NCBI GenBank assembly: GCA_023150615.1
Contig: JAKLKO010000011.1
Location: 1-64,000 of the forward strand
Source: Phycisphaerae bacterium
GTDB lineage: Bacteria > Planctomycetota > Phycisphaerae > UBA1845 > UTPLA1
Length of the DNA stretch: 64,000 nt
Reading direction: 5' to 3'
Under the pieces are notes generated by a model that saw only the letters and a list, made by a program, of their open reading frames with translations, had not been told where the DNA came from and ran no database searches. Below are positions 275-6,043 of the stretch, piece by piece (the first letter of the stretch is position 1; each line of letters opens with the position of its first letter). A program made the translations under genes and the position numbers.

Positions 275-1834
275 ATGAACGGAGTCATCGCTCAGGCCCT
301 GCCGCACGCACACTTCACGGCGCTCGACTGGACGGTGATCGCGGTCTATCTCGCGGGGACGACCTGGCTCGGCGCGCGGCTGGCCGGCCGGCCCTCAACG
401 ATCCGCGACTTCTTCCTCGGCGGTCGGCGCTTGCCGTGGTGGGCGGTGAGCGGGTCGATCCTGGCGACGGAGATATCGGCGGTGACGTTCGTGAGCGTTC
501 CGGCGCGGGCGTACGCGCCGGGCGGGGATTTCACGTATCTGCAACTGGCACTCGGGTCGATCGCGGCGCGGATCATCATCGGCTACTGGTTCGTGCCGGC
601 ATACTACGAGCGTGAGGTTTACAGTCCGTACGAGTACATGGGCCGACGTCTGGGGCCGGGAGTGAACACGGCGGCGACGGGGTTGTTCATGCTGGGGGCG
701 GTTCTGTCGCAGGGGGTGCGGTTGTTCCTGACGGCGCTGGTGCTGCAAGTGGCGTCGGGGATCGAGCTGTGGCGTTCGATCTGGCTGATCGGGGCGTTCT
801 CGGTGGCGTGGACGCTGCTGGGCGGGATCACGACGGTGATCTGGACGGACGTGATCCAGTTCATCGTGCTGGTGGGCGGGGCGGTGATGGCGCTGGTGTG
901 GGTGGTGACGTCCGTGCCGGGCGGGATGCCGGAGGTGCTTCGGCTGGCGGAGGAGGAGCAGAAGCTCCGCGTGTTCGACGTGTCGTTCGATCCGGGGCTG
1001 GAGTACACGTTGTGGACAGGGCTGTTCGGGATGGTGTTTCTGAACCTGGCGGCGCTGGGGACGGACCAGGTGATGGCGCAGCGGATCTTCTGCTGCCGTG
1101 GTTCGCGCGAGGCGCGGCGGGCGGTGATCTGGAGCGCGGTGGGGATCGCGGTGCCGGTGCTGATGCTGTTCGTCGGGATCGGGCTGTACGCGTACTTCGT
1201 TCATTTTCCGATGAGCGCCGACGAGCACGCGTTCGTCACGGAGCGGCGCGACCGCGTGTTCCCGCTGTTTCTGGTGCGGGTGCTGCCGGCGGGGATCACG
1301 GGGCTGGTGATCGCGGGCATCTTCGCGGCGGCGATCTCGACGCTCGATTCGACGCTGGCGGCGTTGGCGCAGACATCGGTGTCGACGATCGTCGGCGGGT
1401 GGCGCGAGCGGACGGGCCGTGGGCCGCTGAGCGACGCGGCGTCGCTGCGCTGGTCGCGCGCGCTGGTGGTGTTCTGGGGCGTGGTATTGTCGGCGGCGGC
1501 GACGGGGCTGACGGGCGTTCGCGGTCACGCGAACGTGATCGACATGGCGCTGGCGGTGCCGTCGTTTACGTACGGGGCGCTGCTGGGGATGCTGCTGCTG
1601 GCGCTGGGGCGCGGACGGCGCTCGGACGCGGGGCTGGTGGTGGGCGTGCCGGCGTCGGTGGGCGTCGTGATCGCGCTGCACTGGTTGACGTCGGCCTCCG
1701 GGGCCGCGCCGCCGATGCTGCGGCTGGCGTATCCGTGGTTCTATCCGATCGGGACGGCGGTCACGTACCTGGCGGGTCGGCTGCTTTCGCCAGTCTCGGG
1801 AGGCGATGGCGGACCGAGTCGCGCCAGGCGTTGA
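275..1834 (+). CDS. Sodium:solute symporter (SSS family)
   Basis: A 519-residue polytopic inner-membrane protein expected to couple sodium entry to uptake of a small organic solute; the substrate cannot be told from sequence. The N-terminus has the SSS layout: a first membrane helix ending in TTWLGARLAG, then FFLGGRRLPWWAV and the SxxATEISAVTFVSVPA stretch of the core helices. About a dozen hydrophobic segments follow, including the conserved AAISTLDSTLAALAQTSVS segment near residue 360. Length is normal for the family. The start is the first in-frame ATG after the -10-like box at 261; there is no clear ribosome site. The last 74 bp overlap the convergent epimerase gene, so both proteins' C-termini share DNA. 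Family is secure; solute unknown. Confidence 0.9.
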   Translation: MNGVIAQALPHAHFTALDWTVIAVYLAGTTWLGARLAGRPSTIRDFFLGGRRLPWWAVSGSILATEISAVTFVSVPARAYAPGGDFTYLQLALGSIAARIIIGYWFVPAYYEREVYSPYEYMGRRLGPGVNTAATGLFMLGAVLSQGVRLFLTALVLQVASGIELWRSIWLIGAFSVAWTLLGGITTVIWTDVIQFIVLVGGAVMALVWVVTSVPGGMPEVLRLAEEEQKLRVFDVSFDPGLEYTLWTGLFGMVFLNLAALGTDQVMAQRIFCCRGSREARRAVIWSAVGIAVPVLMLFVGIGLYAYFVHFPMSADEHAFVTERRDRVFPLFLVRVLPAGITGLVIAGIFAAAISTLDSTLAALAQTSVSTIVGGWRERTGRGPLSDAASLRWSRALVVFWGVVLSAAATGLTGVRGHANVIDMALAVPSFTYGALLGMLLLALGRGRRSDAGLVVGVPASVGVVIALHWLTSASGAAPPMLRLAYPWFYPIGTAVTYLAGRLLSPVSGGDGGPSRARR

Positions 1835-2747
1835 CGGCGTCGCGCGTGGTATGCGTGAAGCGGAAGCCGGCGTCGCGGCAGAATCGTTCGCCGTCGGCCA
1901 GCCAGGGATAGCGGATGTAGTTGAGCGCGCCGGGGGGCATTTCGTTGATCCAGCGGAGCCGCGCGTGGTAGGTGATGGCGGCGACCGCGCCGAGGATGGT
2001 CGCGGGGAGCAGGAGCGGCTTGCGCTTGAAGTCGTGGACGAGCTCGAGGTAGCGGATCGTGCCGGGCGGCGCGATGTTGTACGGCCCTTCGATGCGTGCA
2101 TCGACGGCGGCGAGGACGGCGGCGGCGATGTCGTCTTCGTGGAGGAACTGCATCGGCGGATCGGCGTCGCGGAAGCCGACGACTTTTGGCTTGAAGAGGA
2201 CGCGGGAGACGTAGTTGTCGACGTGCGGGCCGAGCACGATGGGGGCGCGGCCGTGGACGAGGGCGATGGCGGGATTGCGTCGGCGGAAGTCGGCGCAGAG
2301 TTCGTCGCAGCGGCGTTTTTCGTAGGCGTACTGGAAGGCGGGTTGGGCGCGGAGGGGGTCCGACTCGGTGAGAGGGACGGGGTTGTCAGGCTGCGCGCCG
2401 TAGGCGGTGGTGCTTCCGAGGACGAGGGCTCGATCGACGCGCGCGGCGAGGCAGGCGTCGAGGAAGTGGCGCGTGCCGTCGACGTTGACGGCGGTGGCGA
2501 GGGCGCGGTCGTGGATGGGCGCGAAGGTGTAGGCGAGGTGAATGGCGGCGGTGATTCCGCGGTGCGTGAAGATGTCGGCGAAGGGGTGACGGACATCGCA
2601 GTACTGGAATTCGAAGGGCGGCTCGGGCGGCCGGGCGGGCGTGCGGATGTCGAGTCCGAGGATGGTCTCGACCTCGCGGCGGTCGCGAAGCTGCTCGACG
2701 AGACGCTGGCCGATGTAGCCGGATGAACCGGTGATGGCGATGCGCAT
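1761..2747 (-). CDS. NAD-dependent epimerase/dehydratase (extended SDR)
   Basis: A 328-residue extended short-chain dehydrogenase/reductase, a family acting mostly on nucleotide sugars in the cytoplasm. The N-terminus MRIAITGSSGYIGQRL carries the GxxGxxG NAD-binding turn, and an acidic residue after beta-2 (LGLDI) suggests NAD. The catalytic Thr/Ser is in the GSTTAYGAQ region and the YxxxK pair is in FQYAYEKRR near residue 145. The substrate is not evident. It lies 38 bp downstream of the ParA-CBM48 gene on the same strand, so co-transcription is likely. Its 3' end overlaps the symporter gene on the other strand. No strong ribosome-binding site precedes the ATG. Confidence 0.85.
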   Translation of the reverse strand: MRIAITGSSGYIGQRLVEQLRDRREVETILGLDIRTPARPPEPPFEFQYCDVRHPFADIFTHRGITAAIHLAYTFAPIHDRALATAVNVDGTRHFLDACLAARVDRALVLGSTTAYGAQPDNPVPLTESDPLRAQPAFQYAYEKRRCDELCADFRRRNPAIALVHGRAPIVLGPHVDNYVSRVLFKPKVVGFRDADPPMQFLHEDDIAAAVLAAVDARIEGPYNIAPPGTIRYLELVHDFKRKPLLLPATILGAVAAITYHARLRWINEMPPGALNYIRYPWLADGERFCRDAGFRFTHTTRDAVNAWRDSVRHRLPRLAKAADPPGT

Positions 2748-2785: not shown

Positions 2786-4144
2786 TCACTGGACGACGAC
2801 GACGCTGTTGAGATCTCCGAAGGGGTTCGGCTCGACCTCGGCGTTGAACGGGTCATTGAGCCATCGGCCGTCAATCACGTAGCGGTAGCGATATCGGCCG
2901 GGCGCGAGGGGGAGCCGGACCTGGAACGTGCCATCGTCGGCGATGCTTCGGAGCGGCGTGATGTCGGGGTTCCAGCCGTTGAAGTCGCCTGCGAGGCGGA
3001 CGTTCTGCGCGCCGGGGAAGCGCGTGGCAAACACGACGCCGTCGTCGGCGCACTGCACGCCGTAGATGCGGTCGATCTTCCGCTGCGTGGCGGCGTGGTC
3101 GAAGGGGCGTGGTTCGCGCGGCGCGGGCGATCGGTCGATGTCGTCGTCGGTGCGCCGAACGGGCGCGGCGCGATCGGCGCGCGAGGGCGCATCGCGGCGG
3201 GTCGATTCCGCTTCAGCGAGGGCGCCGGAGGCTGCAGCGACGGGTTCGGCCGACTCGTCGCCCGGGATGCGCGTGCGGTGCGGGCCAAGGAGCGTTTCGG
3301 ACGTGGCGAGCAGGCGTTCGGCCTCGGCGGCGATGGCGTCGGCCTGCTGGAGGAGCGAGGGCGCGACGGACGGTTCCGCCCCGAGGGAGATCAGCTCGCG
3401 GGCGAGTCGGACGAAATCGCGGCAGCCGATGCTGGTCGGGTCGTACTCGGTGATGGGCTGTCCAAAGCTGGTGCTTTCCTTGAGCTTGGTGTTGAAGTTG
3501 ATGAAGGTGGAGAGCATGTTCGAGTCGTGGCGCTTGCGAAGCTCGGCGAGGATTTCGCGCGCGAGCTTGGTGCGGACATCGTAGAGATTGCCGACGATCC
3601 GCAGGGTGAGCGGGCGGCTGAGCTTCGCGGCGACGTCGCGGATCGATTCGAGCTGCTTCGAGAGTCCATGCAGGGCGAAGTAGCCGGTGTCGACCGGGAC
3701 GATGACCTCGTCGGCGGCGTGGAGGGTGCTCTGGGTGAGGAAGCCGACGGTCGGAGGGCTGTCGATGAGGACGAAGTCGTAACGGTCGGCGACGCGTTCG
3801 AGGATCTCGCGGAGTCGCAGGTCGCGGCCCTCGACGCCGGCGAGCTTCGTCTCGAGGTGCGCGAGGTCGGTCTTGGCGGGGGCGAGGTCGAAGTTGTTGG
3901 AGATCTGCCAGGTGATGCGGGTGAGGTCGACGCCGTTTTTTCCGGAAGGTTCGAGCAGCACGTCGGCGATGGAAAACTCGACCTGCTCTTCGGGCACGGC
4001 GAGTCCGAGACCGCAGTGGCCTTGCGGGTCGAGGTCGACGAGCAGGGTTCGCTGTCCTTCGCGGGCGAGACAGGCGGCGAGGTTGATCGCTACGGTGGTC
4101 TTTCCGCAGCCGCCCTTCTGGTTGGCGATCGCGATAATCCTCAT
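2786..4144 (-). CDS. ParA/Soj-type ATPase fused to a C-terminal CBM48 glycogen-binding domain
   Basis: A 452-residue cytoplasmic protein with two recognisable parts. Residues 1 to about 260 form a ParA/MinD-like ATPase: deviant Walker A KGGCGKTT at 10-17, LLVDLDPQGH, and Walker B-like FVLIDSPPTVG. A Pro/Ala/Arg-rich linker of about 90 residues follows. The last 85 or so residues form an early-set (AMPK-beta/CBM48) fold with the hallmark LAGDFNGWNP and a YRYRYVIDG strand, as in glycogen-binding subunits. ParA proteins use ATP-driven dimerisation to position cargo; here the cargo may be glycogen or another alpha-glucan, which is inference. The start at 4144 was chosen over an upstream ATG at 4177 because AAGGA lies 7 nt before it and the ATPase fold begins there. 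No ParB gene is nearby. Confidence 0.85.
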   Translation of the reverse strand: MRIIAIANQKGGCGKTTVAINLAACLAREGQRTLLVDLDPQGHCGLGLAVPEEQVEFSIADVLLEPSGKNGVDLTRITWQISNNFDLAPAKTDLAHLETKLAGVEGRDLRLREILERVADRYDFVLIDSPPTVGFLTQSTLHAADEVIVPVDTGYFALHGLSKQLESIRDVAAKLSRPLTLRIVGNLYDVRTKLAREILAELRKRHDSNMLSTFINFNTKLKESTSFGQPITEYDPTSIGCRDFVRLARELISLGAEPSVAPSLLQQADAIAAEAERLLATSETLLGPHRTRIPGDESAEPVAAASGALAEAESTRRDAPSRADRAAPVRRTDDDIDRSPAPREPRPFDHAATQRKIDRIYGVQCADDGVVFATRFPGAQNVRLAGDFNGWNPDITPLRSIADDGTFQVRLPLAPGRYRYRYVIDGRWLNDPFNAEVEPNPFGDLNSVVVVQ

Positions 4145-4543
4145 GGAAGCGTCCTTGCGAGAGGCGCCGAGGCGCACGGAATAGGCCGCCGATCCACCGG
4201 CCGCACGGCAGGTGGCCCGGTAATGTCAGCAGTCAAGTATGGATCGACGCGCCAGTGCTGATAACTTGAAGCGTTTATCGGACGAATCTTCGGCTGAAGC
4301 AAGGACTTAGGAGCGGCGTGGAGAATTCACATGCGGCGGTTCGGCGTGATGTGACGGCGGGTGGGCGACGGCGGGTTGCGAGGACGGAGGAGCGCGGATG
4401 GAAGTTTCGATGCGGACGTAGGTTCCGTGCGAGCACGATGACTGCAAACAGGATTTCACAGGTTCCATCCGTCCGCTGAAAGGCGTCTTGATGCAATCGC
4501 GCGCGGTCCCTACGATCGGGGTTCGAAAGGGCGGGTCGGCGAC
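4145..4543. other. intergenic region between divergent parA-like gene and hldE
   Basis: About 400 bp between divergently read genes. The only feature I can support is the candidate hldE promoter near its right edge. Small ORFs here, such as a 73-codon one at 4275-4496, lack a ribosome site and coding character. Confidence 0.5.
4488..4516 (+). promoter_or_regulatory. candidate promoter of hldE
   Basis: TTGATG (4488-4493), a 17-bp spacer, then TACGAT (4511-4516), 27 nt before the hldE ATG. The same TTGnnn-17-TACGAT arrangement precedes the HD-GYP gene at 44635, which strengthens the call a little. Confidence 0.45.
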
Positions 4544-6043
4544 ATGTCCAACTGGGAACGGCTGCTGCAATTGATGGAAGGTCCGGGCGGGGGCCGGATC
4601 GCGGTCGTCGGCGATTTCATGCTCGACGCGTACCTTTACGGCGACGCGGAGCGGATCAGCCCGGAGGCGCCCGTGCCGGTGCTGCGGGTGGTGCAAGAGG
4701 AGATCGCGCTCGGCGGGGCGGGATCGGTCGCGGCGGACGTCGCGGCGCTGGGCGATCGGGCGTGCTGCTTCGGGATCGTCGGGGATGACGACGCGGGGCG
4801 GACGATCCGCGAGCAACTGACGGCGCGCGGAGCGGAGGTCGCGGGACTGCTGACGGTCGCGGGCCGTCCGACGACGAAGAAGACGCGGCTCGTCGGATTG
4901 GCGCAGCACCGGCATCGCCAGCAGCTCATCCGCGTGGATGCGGAGCAGAGGGAGGCGATCGACGCGGGGGTCGCGGCGCGGATCATCGCGGCACTGCGCG
5001 GGGGGCTGACGGACTGCCGCGCGATCTGCGTCGAGGACTACGGCAAGGGGCTGGTGACCGATGCGTTGATGAAGCAGGTGCTCGAGTTGGCGCGGAGCGC
5101 GCGGTTGCCGGTGCTGGTCGATCCAGCGCGGACGAAGGACTACGGCCGGTACGCGGGGGCGACGGTCGTGACGCCAAACCGCAGCGAGACGGAACACGTG
5201 ACGGGGCTGCGGCTGGCGACGTTCGAGGCCGTGCGGTCGGCGGCGCGGACGATCTTGGAGGCGTGCGGGACGCAGCAGGTGTGCGTGACACTGGACGCGG
5301 AGGGGATGGCGCTGATCGGGCCGGATTCGCAGGTGTCGCACATCCCGACGCGGGCGCGCGAGGTGTATGACGTCACGGGCGCGGGGGACGAGGTGCTGGC
5401 GGCGCTGACGGTGGGGTTGGCGCGGGGCGCGACGCTGATCGAGGCGTGCGCGCTGGCGAACGTGGCGGGGGGTCTGGCGGTGGAGCGGTTCGGCTGCGTG
5501 CCGATCTCGCGGGACGAGGTGATCGCGGAGCTGATGCAACTGAGCCACGAGCAGATGGGCAAGCGGCGGGACCTGCCGCGGCTGCTGCCGGAGCTGGCGC
5601 GGCGGCGTCAGCGCGGACAGCGGATCGTGTTTACGAACGGCTGCTTCGACCTGCTGCACCCCGGGCACGTGGAGTATCTGAGCGCGGCGCGGCGCGAGGG
5701 AGACGTGCTGGTGGTCGGGCTGAATTCGGATGCGTCGGTTCGGGGGCAGTCGAAGGGGTCTGACCGGCCGATCCTGGGTCAGAACGATCGGGCGCGGATG
5801 CTGTCGGCGCTGGCGGACGTGGACTTCGTGGTGATCTTCGACGAGCCGACGCCGGCGCGTCTGATCGAGGCGATCCGGCCGGACGTGCTGGTGAAGGGGG
5901 AGGACTGGTCGGACAAGGGCGTGGTGGGTCGGGAGCTGGTGGAGTCGTACGGGGGTCGGGTGGTCCTGGCGAAGCTGGTGGAGGGTTTCAGCACGTCGGC
6001 GTTGATCGAGCGGATCCGACGGGGGTCGGGAAGCGAGATTTGA
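4544..6043 (+). CDS. hldE: Bifunctional heptose-7-phosphate kinase / heptose-1-phosphate adenylyltransferase
   Basis: A 499-residue cytoplasmic enzyme making the ADP-heptose precursor of lipopolysaccharide inner core. The N-terminal PfkB-type kinase (about 1-330) has VVGDFMLDAYLYGD, the substrate region RISPEAPVPVL, and the catalytic DVTGAGDEVLAAL near residue 277. The C-terminal nucleotidyltransferase (about 355-499) has TNGCFDLLHPGHVEYL near residue 363 with the HxGH motif, plus GLNSDASVRGQSKG. Kinase and transferase are fused as in Enterobacteria; the separate phosphatase (GmhB) and epimerase (HldD) genes are not adjacent. Its presence implies that the cell makes a heptose-containing glycolipid or glycan. 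The ribosome site is weak (GGGTCGG region). Confidence 0.95.
   Translation: MSNWERLLQLMEGPGGGRIAVVGDFMLDAYLYGDAERISPEAPVPVLRVVQEEIALGGAGSVAADVAALGDRACCFGIVGDDDAGRTIREQLTARGAEVAGLLTVAGRPTTKKTRLVGLAQHRHRQQLIRVDAEQREAIDAGVAARIIAALRGGLTDCRAICVEDYGKGLVTDALMKQVLELARSARLPVLVDPARTKDYGRYAGATVVTPNRSETEHVTGLRLATFEAVRSAARTILEACGTQQVCVTLDAEGMALIGPDSQVSHIPTRAREVYDVTGAGDEVLAALTVGLARGATLIEACALANVAGGLAVERFGCVPISRDEVIAELMQLSHEQMGKRRDLPRLLPELARRRQRGQRIVFTNGCFDLLHPGHVEYLSAARREGDVLVVGLNSDASVRGQSKGSDRPILGQNDRARMLSALADVDFVVIFDEPTPARLIEAIRPDVLVKGEDWSDKGVVGRELVESYGGRVVLAKLVEGFSTSALIERIRRGSGSEI

Follow-up and report, generated by a model that had tools for sequence, protein, structure and literature searches.

A ParA-type ATPase with a built-in glycogen-type binding domain, judged from its sequence to be ancient and clade-wide in the Phycisphaerae

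What would a ParA-type ATPase do with a carbohydrate-binding module of the AMPK-beta type? The question is raised by a gene in the stretch of DNA analysed here (the window), which comprises 64,000 nt of Phycisphaerae bacterium GCA_023150615.1, contig JAKLKO010000011.1, positions 1-64,000. To our knowledge, no dedicated system for placing bacterial glycogen has been described. In the known ParA/MinD cargo-positioning systems, a separate partner protein connects the ATPase to its cargo, and the account of these systems that we consulted makes no mention of glycogen (PMC10241942). A search of the open-access literature likewise found no link between ParA and CBM48 or between ParA and glycogen. 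An earlier reading of the sequence alone had described the open reading frame at 2786-4144 as a complete planctomycete ParA/Soj ATPase joined to an AMPK-beta/CBM48 domain. Its coordinates are exact, the strand is minus, and the domain matches and structure models agree with the assignment (Table 1).

Table 1. Coordinates of the fusion gene, its parts and its neighbours in the window.
Feature	Position	Strand	Basis or remark
ParA-CBM48 fusion gene	2786..4144	minus	452 aa; ATG at 4144, stop ending at 2786
AAGGA Shine-Dalgarno-like site	4152..4156	minus	7 nt upstream of ATG; read from sequence
ParA/Soj ATPase domain, residues 1-255	3380..4144	minus	AAA_31, Foldseek, residue counts
Conserved amphipathic helix, residues 262-287	3284..3361	minus	AF2 model and alignment column counts
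Disordered Ala/Pro-rich linker, residues 288-349	3098..3283	minus	pLDDT, length, composition
AMPK-beta-type CBM48 domain, residues 350-452	2789..3097	minus	AMPK1_CBM 1.3e-10 and structure model
W391 codon (= AMPK-beta1 W100)	2972..2974	minus	W in 103/103 relatives
R421 codon (= AMPK-beta1 K126)	2882..2884	minus	R in 103/103 relatives
W428 codon (= AMPK-beta1 W133)	2861..2863	minus	W in 103/103 relatives
N446 codon (= AMPK-beta1 N150)	2807..2809	minus	N in 91/103 relatives
NAD-dependent epimerase gene, downstream of fusion	1761..2747	minus	not in any neighbour cluster common to at least 5 loci
hldE-like kinase/cytidylyltransferase gene, divergent neighbour	4544..6043	plus	beside fusion in 16/90 loci

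Pfam places AAA_31 over residues 1-179 (7e-50) and, in the C-terminal part, AMPK1_CBM over residues 378-452 (1.3e-10) and CBM_48 (5.9e-8), all above the curated cut-offs; the AMPK1_CBM match scores 41.7 bits against a gathering score of 26.8. In an AlphaFold2 model of the whole protein, for which 103 relatives were used, two domains are predicted with confidence (pLDDT mostly >90), and residues 289-345 between them stay below a pLDDT of 50. This predicted disorder bears out the Pro/Ala linker of the sequence-only reading, which had missed a conserved helix (residues 262-285 in the model, 262-287 by conservation) lying C-terminal to the ATPase domain. The hydrophobic residues of this helix follow a 4-3 spacing (columns counted: 264, 268, 271, 275, 278 and 285). 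The linker itself, taken between alignment positions 287 and 352, varies from 7 to 154 residues among the relatives.

The best Foldseek matches of the ATPase part are Soj and ParA structures, with TM scores (target) of 0.92-0.94. Its P-loop, KGGCGKTT, is a deviant Walker A with the signature lysine, and it is accompanied by the catalytic aspartates, as in ParA/Soj-type ATPases; K10, K15, D39 and D128 are each conserved in 103/103 aligned relatives. R191, at the position of B. subtilis Soj R189, is arginine in 97 of the 103 proteins, and K220, at the position of Soj R218, is lysine in 98. We take these two Soj residues to be DNA contacts in non-specific binding, and the basic residues kept at their positions predict DNA binding of this type for the fusion. 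K193 and R196 (the latter in 101/103) are basic residues specific to the fusion clade and mostly absent from the Soj proteins of the same genomes. The protein thus shares the ATPase fold, the signature lysine of the P-loop and the DNA-binding positions with the Soj proteins of T. thermophilus, B. subtilis and H. pylori, but it differs from Soj/ParA in forming a clade apart from the Soj of the same genome, in having no parB nearby and in its additional C-terminal helix, linker and CBM48. It scores below the curated cut-offs of two named families, the NCBIfam ParA_partition family NF041546 (110.6 bits vs 180) and the BcsQ cellulose-synthesis ATPase family TIGR03371 (89.1 bits vs 157.85). All 103 fusion proteins also have a tryptophan at residue 79 (window 3908-3910), a position at which their genomes' Soj proteins do not conserve it; W79 may serve to bind a partner.

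Modelled alone, the CBM reaches a pLDDT of 91.8 and matches 1z0n_B with a TM score (target) of 0.87 at 1.5 Å, and further Foldseek matches include the cyclodextrin-bound structures 4yee and 4yef. The residues equivalent to W100, K126 and W133 of AMPK-beta1 are W, R and W in all 103 fusion CBMs, and W391, R421 and W428 belong to the 10 positions of the domain that show no variation at all. K126 and N150 of AMPK-beta1 are, we assume, sugar-contact residues. Sequence identity to the window protein falls to about 35-40% among the 103 aligned relatives, and the invariance of contact residues in proteins so diverged is the pattern expected for retained sugar binding. The retention of the glycogen-contact residues had been put forward earlier as a check on the assignment, and the domain passes it; with the fold, both contact tryptophans and the basic residue present, the module is predicted to bind glucan. 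The resemblance to the glycogen-binding domain of AMPK beta (PDB 1z0m, 1z0n, 4yee, 4yef) extends to fold, W100, K126 (as R), W133 and mostly N150, whereas the fusion CBM is joined to a ParA ATPase and stands outside any kinase complex. The plant protein PTST also carries a CBM48 with the same tryptophan pair, together with a coiled coil, and acts as a targeting adaptor (PMC4339375). Mutation of the equivalent tryptophan pair abolished starch binding by PTST (PMC4339375); PTST, however, has no ATPase and brings starch synthase to granules, while the fusion has one. In a single divergent member, from family f24 (L183:4969-6294), both contact tryptophans are lost and the ParA part is intact. The sugar site has apparently decayed in this copy, which we count against a glucan ligand. 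The window genome also encodes, in an unrelated neighbourhood of contig C70, a stand-alone 119-aa CBM protein of the AMPK type (L157:10560-10919), which groups with AMPK-beta and not with the fusion CBM.

The two domains are joined in the same frame in 89 of 90 distinct loci (duplicates removed) from planctomycetes of the class Phycisphaerae, and the fusion is carried by at least 86 of the 150 genomes that were sampled evenly across the class. Its presence in close relatives, which the sequence-only reading had asked to see, is therefore established and reaches far beyond them. The count began with 87 genomes matching at E <= 1e-30. Six of these matches (families f9 and f18: G061, G070, G079, G085, G091 and G097) consisted of the CBM only, and a reading of their loci revealed that each has a complete ParA ahead of the CBM; another (G145) is a CBM open reading frame without an in-frame ParA, which leaves 86. 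Divergent fusions also fall below the threshold (e.g., in G098, G157 and G182). Carrier counts are accordingly approximate, because the non-carriers of the sample hold such true carriers and because six matches were CBM-only until read. When 60 relatives were compared by family within the order, the same-frame fusion was present in six families and absent from two (f4 and f7). Of the orthologs that were extracted, 37 of 38 are full length, and the remaining one (L058) is split in its MAG. This split copy, together with CBM open reading frames without an in-frame ParA at L164 and L186, is what an assembly artefact, a frame error or chance would leave behind. Such an origin is nevertheless practically out of the question, since the fusion is uninterrupted in nearly all of the loci and in divergent families, including single-contig chromosomes, and recurrence in one frame at so many distinct loci excludes chance.

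The named relatives are planctomycetes of the Phycisphaerae, Phycisphaerales and Sedimentisphaerales, with two exceptions: records whose titles give other phyla, probably through mislabelling of the MAGs. The same ParA-CBM fusion was seen outside the Phycisphaerae in a genome of another class of the phylum (L181:6106-7299, G233), where it would be ancestral, transferred or a MAG contamination. A mobile, plasmid or viral gene was considered and rejected: the viral search returned no relative, and the plasmid search with the CBM part returned no fusion; its 8 hits were partial matches to the CBM, and glgB is the annotation of five.

A stand-alone Soj-type ParA is present in all 51 genomes tested, carriers and non-carriers, so the idea that the fusion is the only chromosomal ParA of its genome is rejected; in carriers, it is an addition. 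When 50 ParA domains of fusions were placed in one tree with 28 Soj orthologs, the two sets separated cleanly, with a support of 0.998 for the fusion clade. A single fusion clade, distinct from the Soj of the same genomes, indicates an extra, dedicated ParA that was fused once and long ago. On the sequence evidence, then, the fusion is a single ancient event, kept across the Phycisphaerae alongside a separate Soj.

The surroundings of the gene say little about its role. As had been noticed earlier, no parB adjoins it and an epimerase gene follows on the same strand; the epimerase is not a conserved neighbour and is probably unrelated to the fusion. The only repeatedly conserved neighbour is the divergent hldE-like gene, found at 16 of the 90 loci. 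These loci contain no conserved neighbour gene suited as an ATPase-stimulating partner, nor any alpha-glucan gene within 10 kb, and we count the latter against a glucan role. Gene neighbourhood was accordingly rejected as a guide to function. In one genome (G009), a GT/GH57 pair lies about 10 kb from the fusion, which could be chance.

The genes of alpha-glucan metabolism are widespread in the class: in the 150 genomes, GlgB was found in 70, GH13 in 79, phosphorylase in 129 and GH57 in 125. Canonical GlgA is nearly absent (3 of the 150), and the nature of the stored glucan is thus unproven. At least one alpha-glucan gene occurs in 87/87 matching genomes and in 62/63 others; genes so nearly universal make co-occurrence with the fusion uninformative. 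A smaller share of the carriers than of the other genomes has GlgB (33/87 vs 37/63), and a GT5-like gene is enriched in carriers (26/87 vs 3/63, raw genome counts in a pattern that follows a few families). Phyletic co-occurrence with GlgA, GlgB, GH13, phosphorylase and GH57 does not discriminate, and we rejected it as functional evidence. In the window genome, a GlgB-GlgX-GlgE cluster lies on contig C6 (L189:7622-14149), and contig C33 carries a GH57 gene. The cluster suggests that this lineage, which has no canonical GlgA, makes alpha-glucan by way of maltose-1-phosphate.

We propose, with a probability of about 0.5, that the fusion is a dedicated ParA with its cargo adaptor in cis, which would tie alpha-glucan to the nucleoid and spread or partition the polymer. 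More tentatively, the fusion may work throughout the class as a ParA system complete in itself, by which alpha-glucan (glycogen) is distributed over the nucleoid and partitioned; its cargo module would reside on the ATPase and not on a ParB-like partner, and this would be the first storage-polysaccharide cargo of a ParA. Glucan binding, DNA binding and positioning are what we infer for the protein. ATP-bound dimers would sit on the nucleoid, and their CBMs, on flexible linker arms, would grip alpha-glucan (glycogen) particles; many weak contacts could then spread the glucan along the nucleoid, leading to its inheritance by both daughters. The arrangement suggests that the sugar store of Phycisphaerae cells is retained, or distributed, along the chromosome. 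If nothing stimulates ATP hydrolysis by the fusion, it would be a passive nucleoid-glucan tether, akin to PhaM, and not a moving positioning system. The placing of glycogen granules had been suggested at the outset; the suggestion fits the conservation of the protein and the fact that no sampled carrier lacks alpha-glucan genes. The fusion neither tracks nor is linked to these genes, however, and we continue to advance the suggestion conditionally. The companion suggestion of a coupling of storage to cell division is speculation.

There is a precedent among storage polymers, in that PhaM of Ralstonia eutropha ties PHB granules to the nucleoid (PMC3556143), as we propose the fusion to do with its own polymer. 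PhaM is a phasin-like DNA-binding protein with PHB as its cargo, whereas the fusion is a ParA whose proposed cargo is a glucan. With McdA/McdB, ParC/PpfA and other ParA/MinD systems, the fusion has in common a dedicated extra ParA per genome, probably for one cargo; McdA/McdB and ParC/PpfA use a separate partner, while here the putative cargo-binding domain is in cis.

An alternative is that the fusion regulates alpha-glucan enzymes, the CBM sensing or docking on glycogen and the ParA switch recruiting or gating a synthase, a branching enzyme or a debranching enzyme. CBM48 has a sensor or adaptor role in AMPK-beta and PTST (PMC4339375), the coiled-coil-like helix 262-287 could dock a partner, and BcsQ, whose Pfam family CBP_BcsQ matches the fusion at 3.1e-16, is an example of a ParA-like ATPase in the service of polysaccharide machinery. 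A purely regulatory protein would, however, have no need of the Soj-type DNA-binding positions that are kept here or of the clade-specific K193 and R196, and the fusion has no linkage to any gene for a glucan enzyme; we consider this role less likely than the proposed one, but a serious rival to it. It is also conceivable, if rather unlikely, that the CBM48 fold was recruited to a protein or to a non-storage glycan, e.g., an exported or cell-envelope glucan, and that the target positioned or regulated by the ParA is not glycogen. The lack of linkage to, and of tracking with, alpha-glucan genes is in keeping with such a ligand, as is the loss of the tryptophans in one lineage (L183); moreover, several CBM48s do not belong to the W133 type, an example being the N-domain of GlgB in the same genome. 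Against it stand the two contact tryptophans and the basic residue, without exception among the 103 relatives even at the lowest identities.

A further reading is chromosome segregation, with the fusion as a second ParA working with the ParB of the genome and attuned to the energy store by its CBM. ParB is present in 18/18 genomes tested and does not adjoin the fusion, and in none of the 18 does a recognisable ParA gene lie within about 1.5 kb of the main ParB (L194-L211), so gene order does not fix the partner of ParB, which leaves room for the fusion. In the window genome, the main ParB lies at G000:C4:131857-132354, and parA and parB seem to be unlinked across the class. As a parABS component, the fusion would lie beside parB or be the sole ParA available to ParB; it is neither. 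Since every tested genome, with or without the fusion, has its stand-alone Soj-type ParA, and several families are entirely without the fusion, a segregation role appears very unlikely.

A dedicated, glucan-carrying ParA would matter in two ways. In E. coli, glycogen gathers at the cell poles, and daughter cells seem to receive unequal shares of it (PMC4836754); if our proposal is true, there are bacteria that actively distribute their carbon reserve, and the cargo adaptor of a ParA can be present in cis. The question is testable, since the substitutions W391A and W428A are expected to separate glucan binding from the other functions of the fusion.

Finally, stand-alone CBM48s closely like that of the fusion occur in family f25. 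One lies between GH57 and GH77 genes, with a starch-synthase-like GT beside GH57 and a DUF3536/GH57 protein after GH77 (L156:1126-7848); another adjoins GH57 and a starch-synthase-like GT (L155:9593-12892). These clusters tie the CBM type, not the fusion, to alpha-glucan. Clusters of GT, GH57 and debranching enzyme genes recur in other families (L192 and L193).
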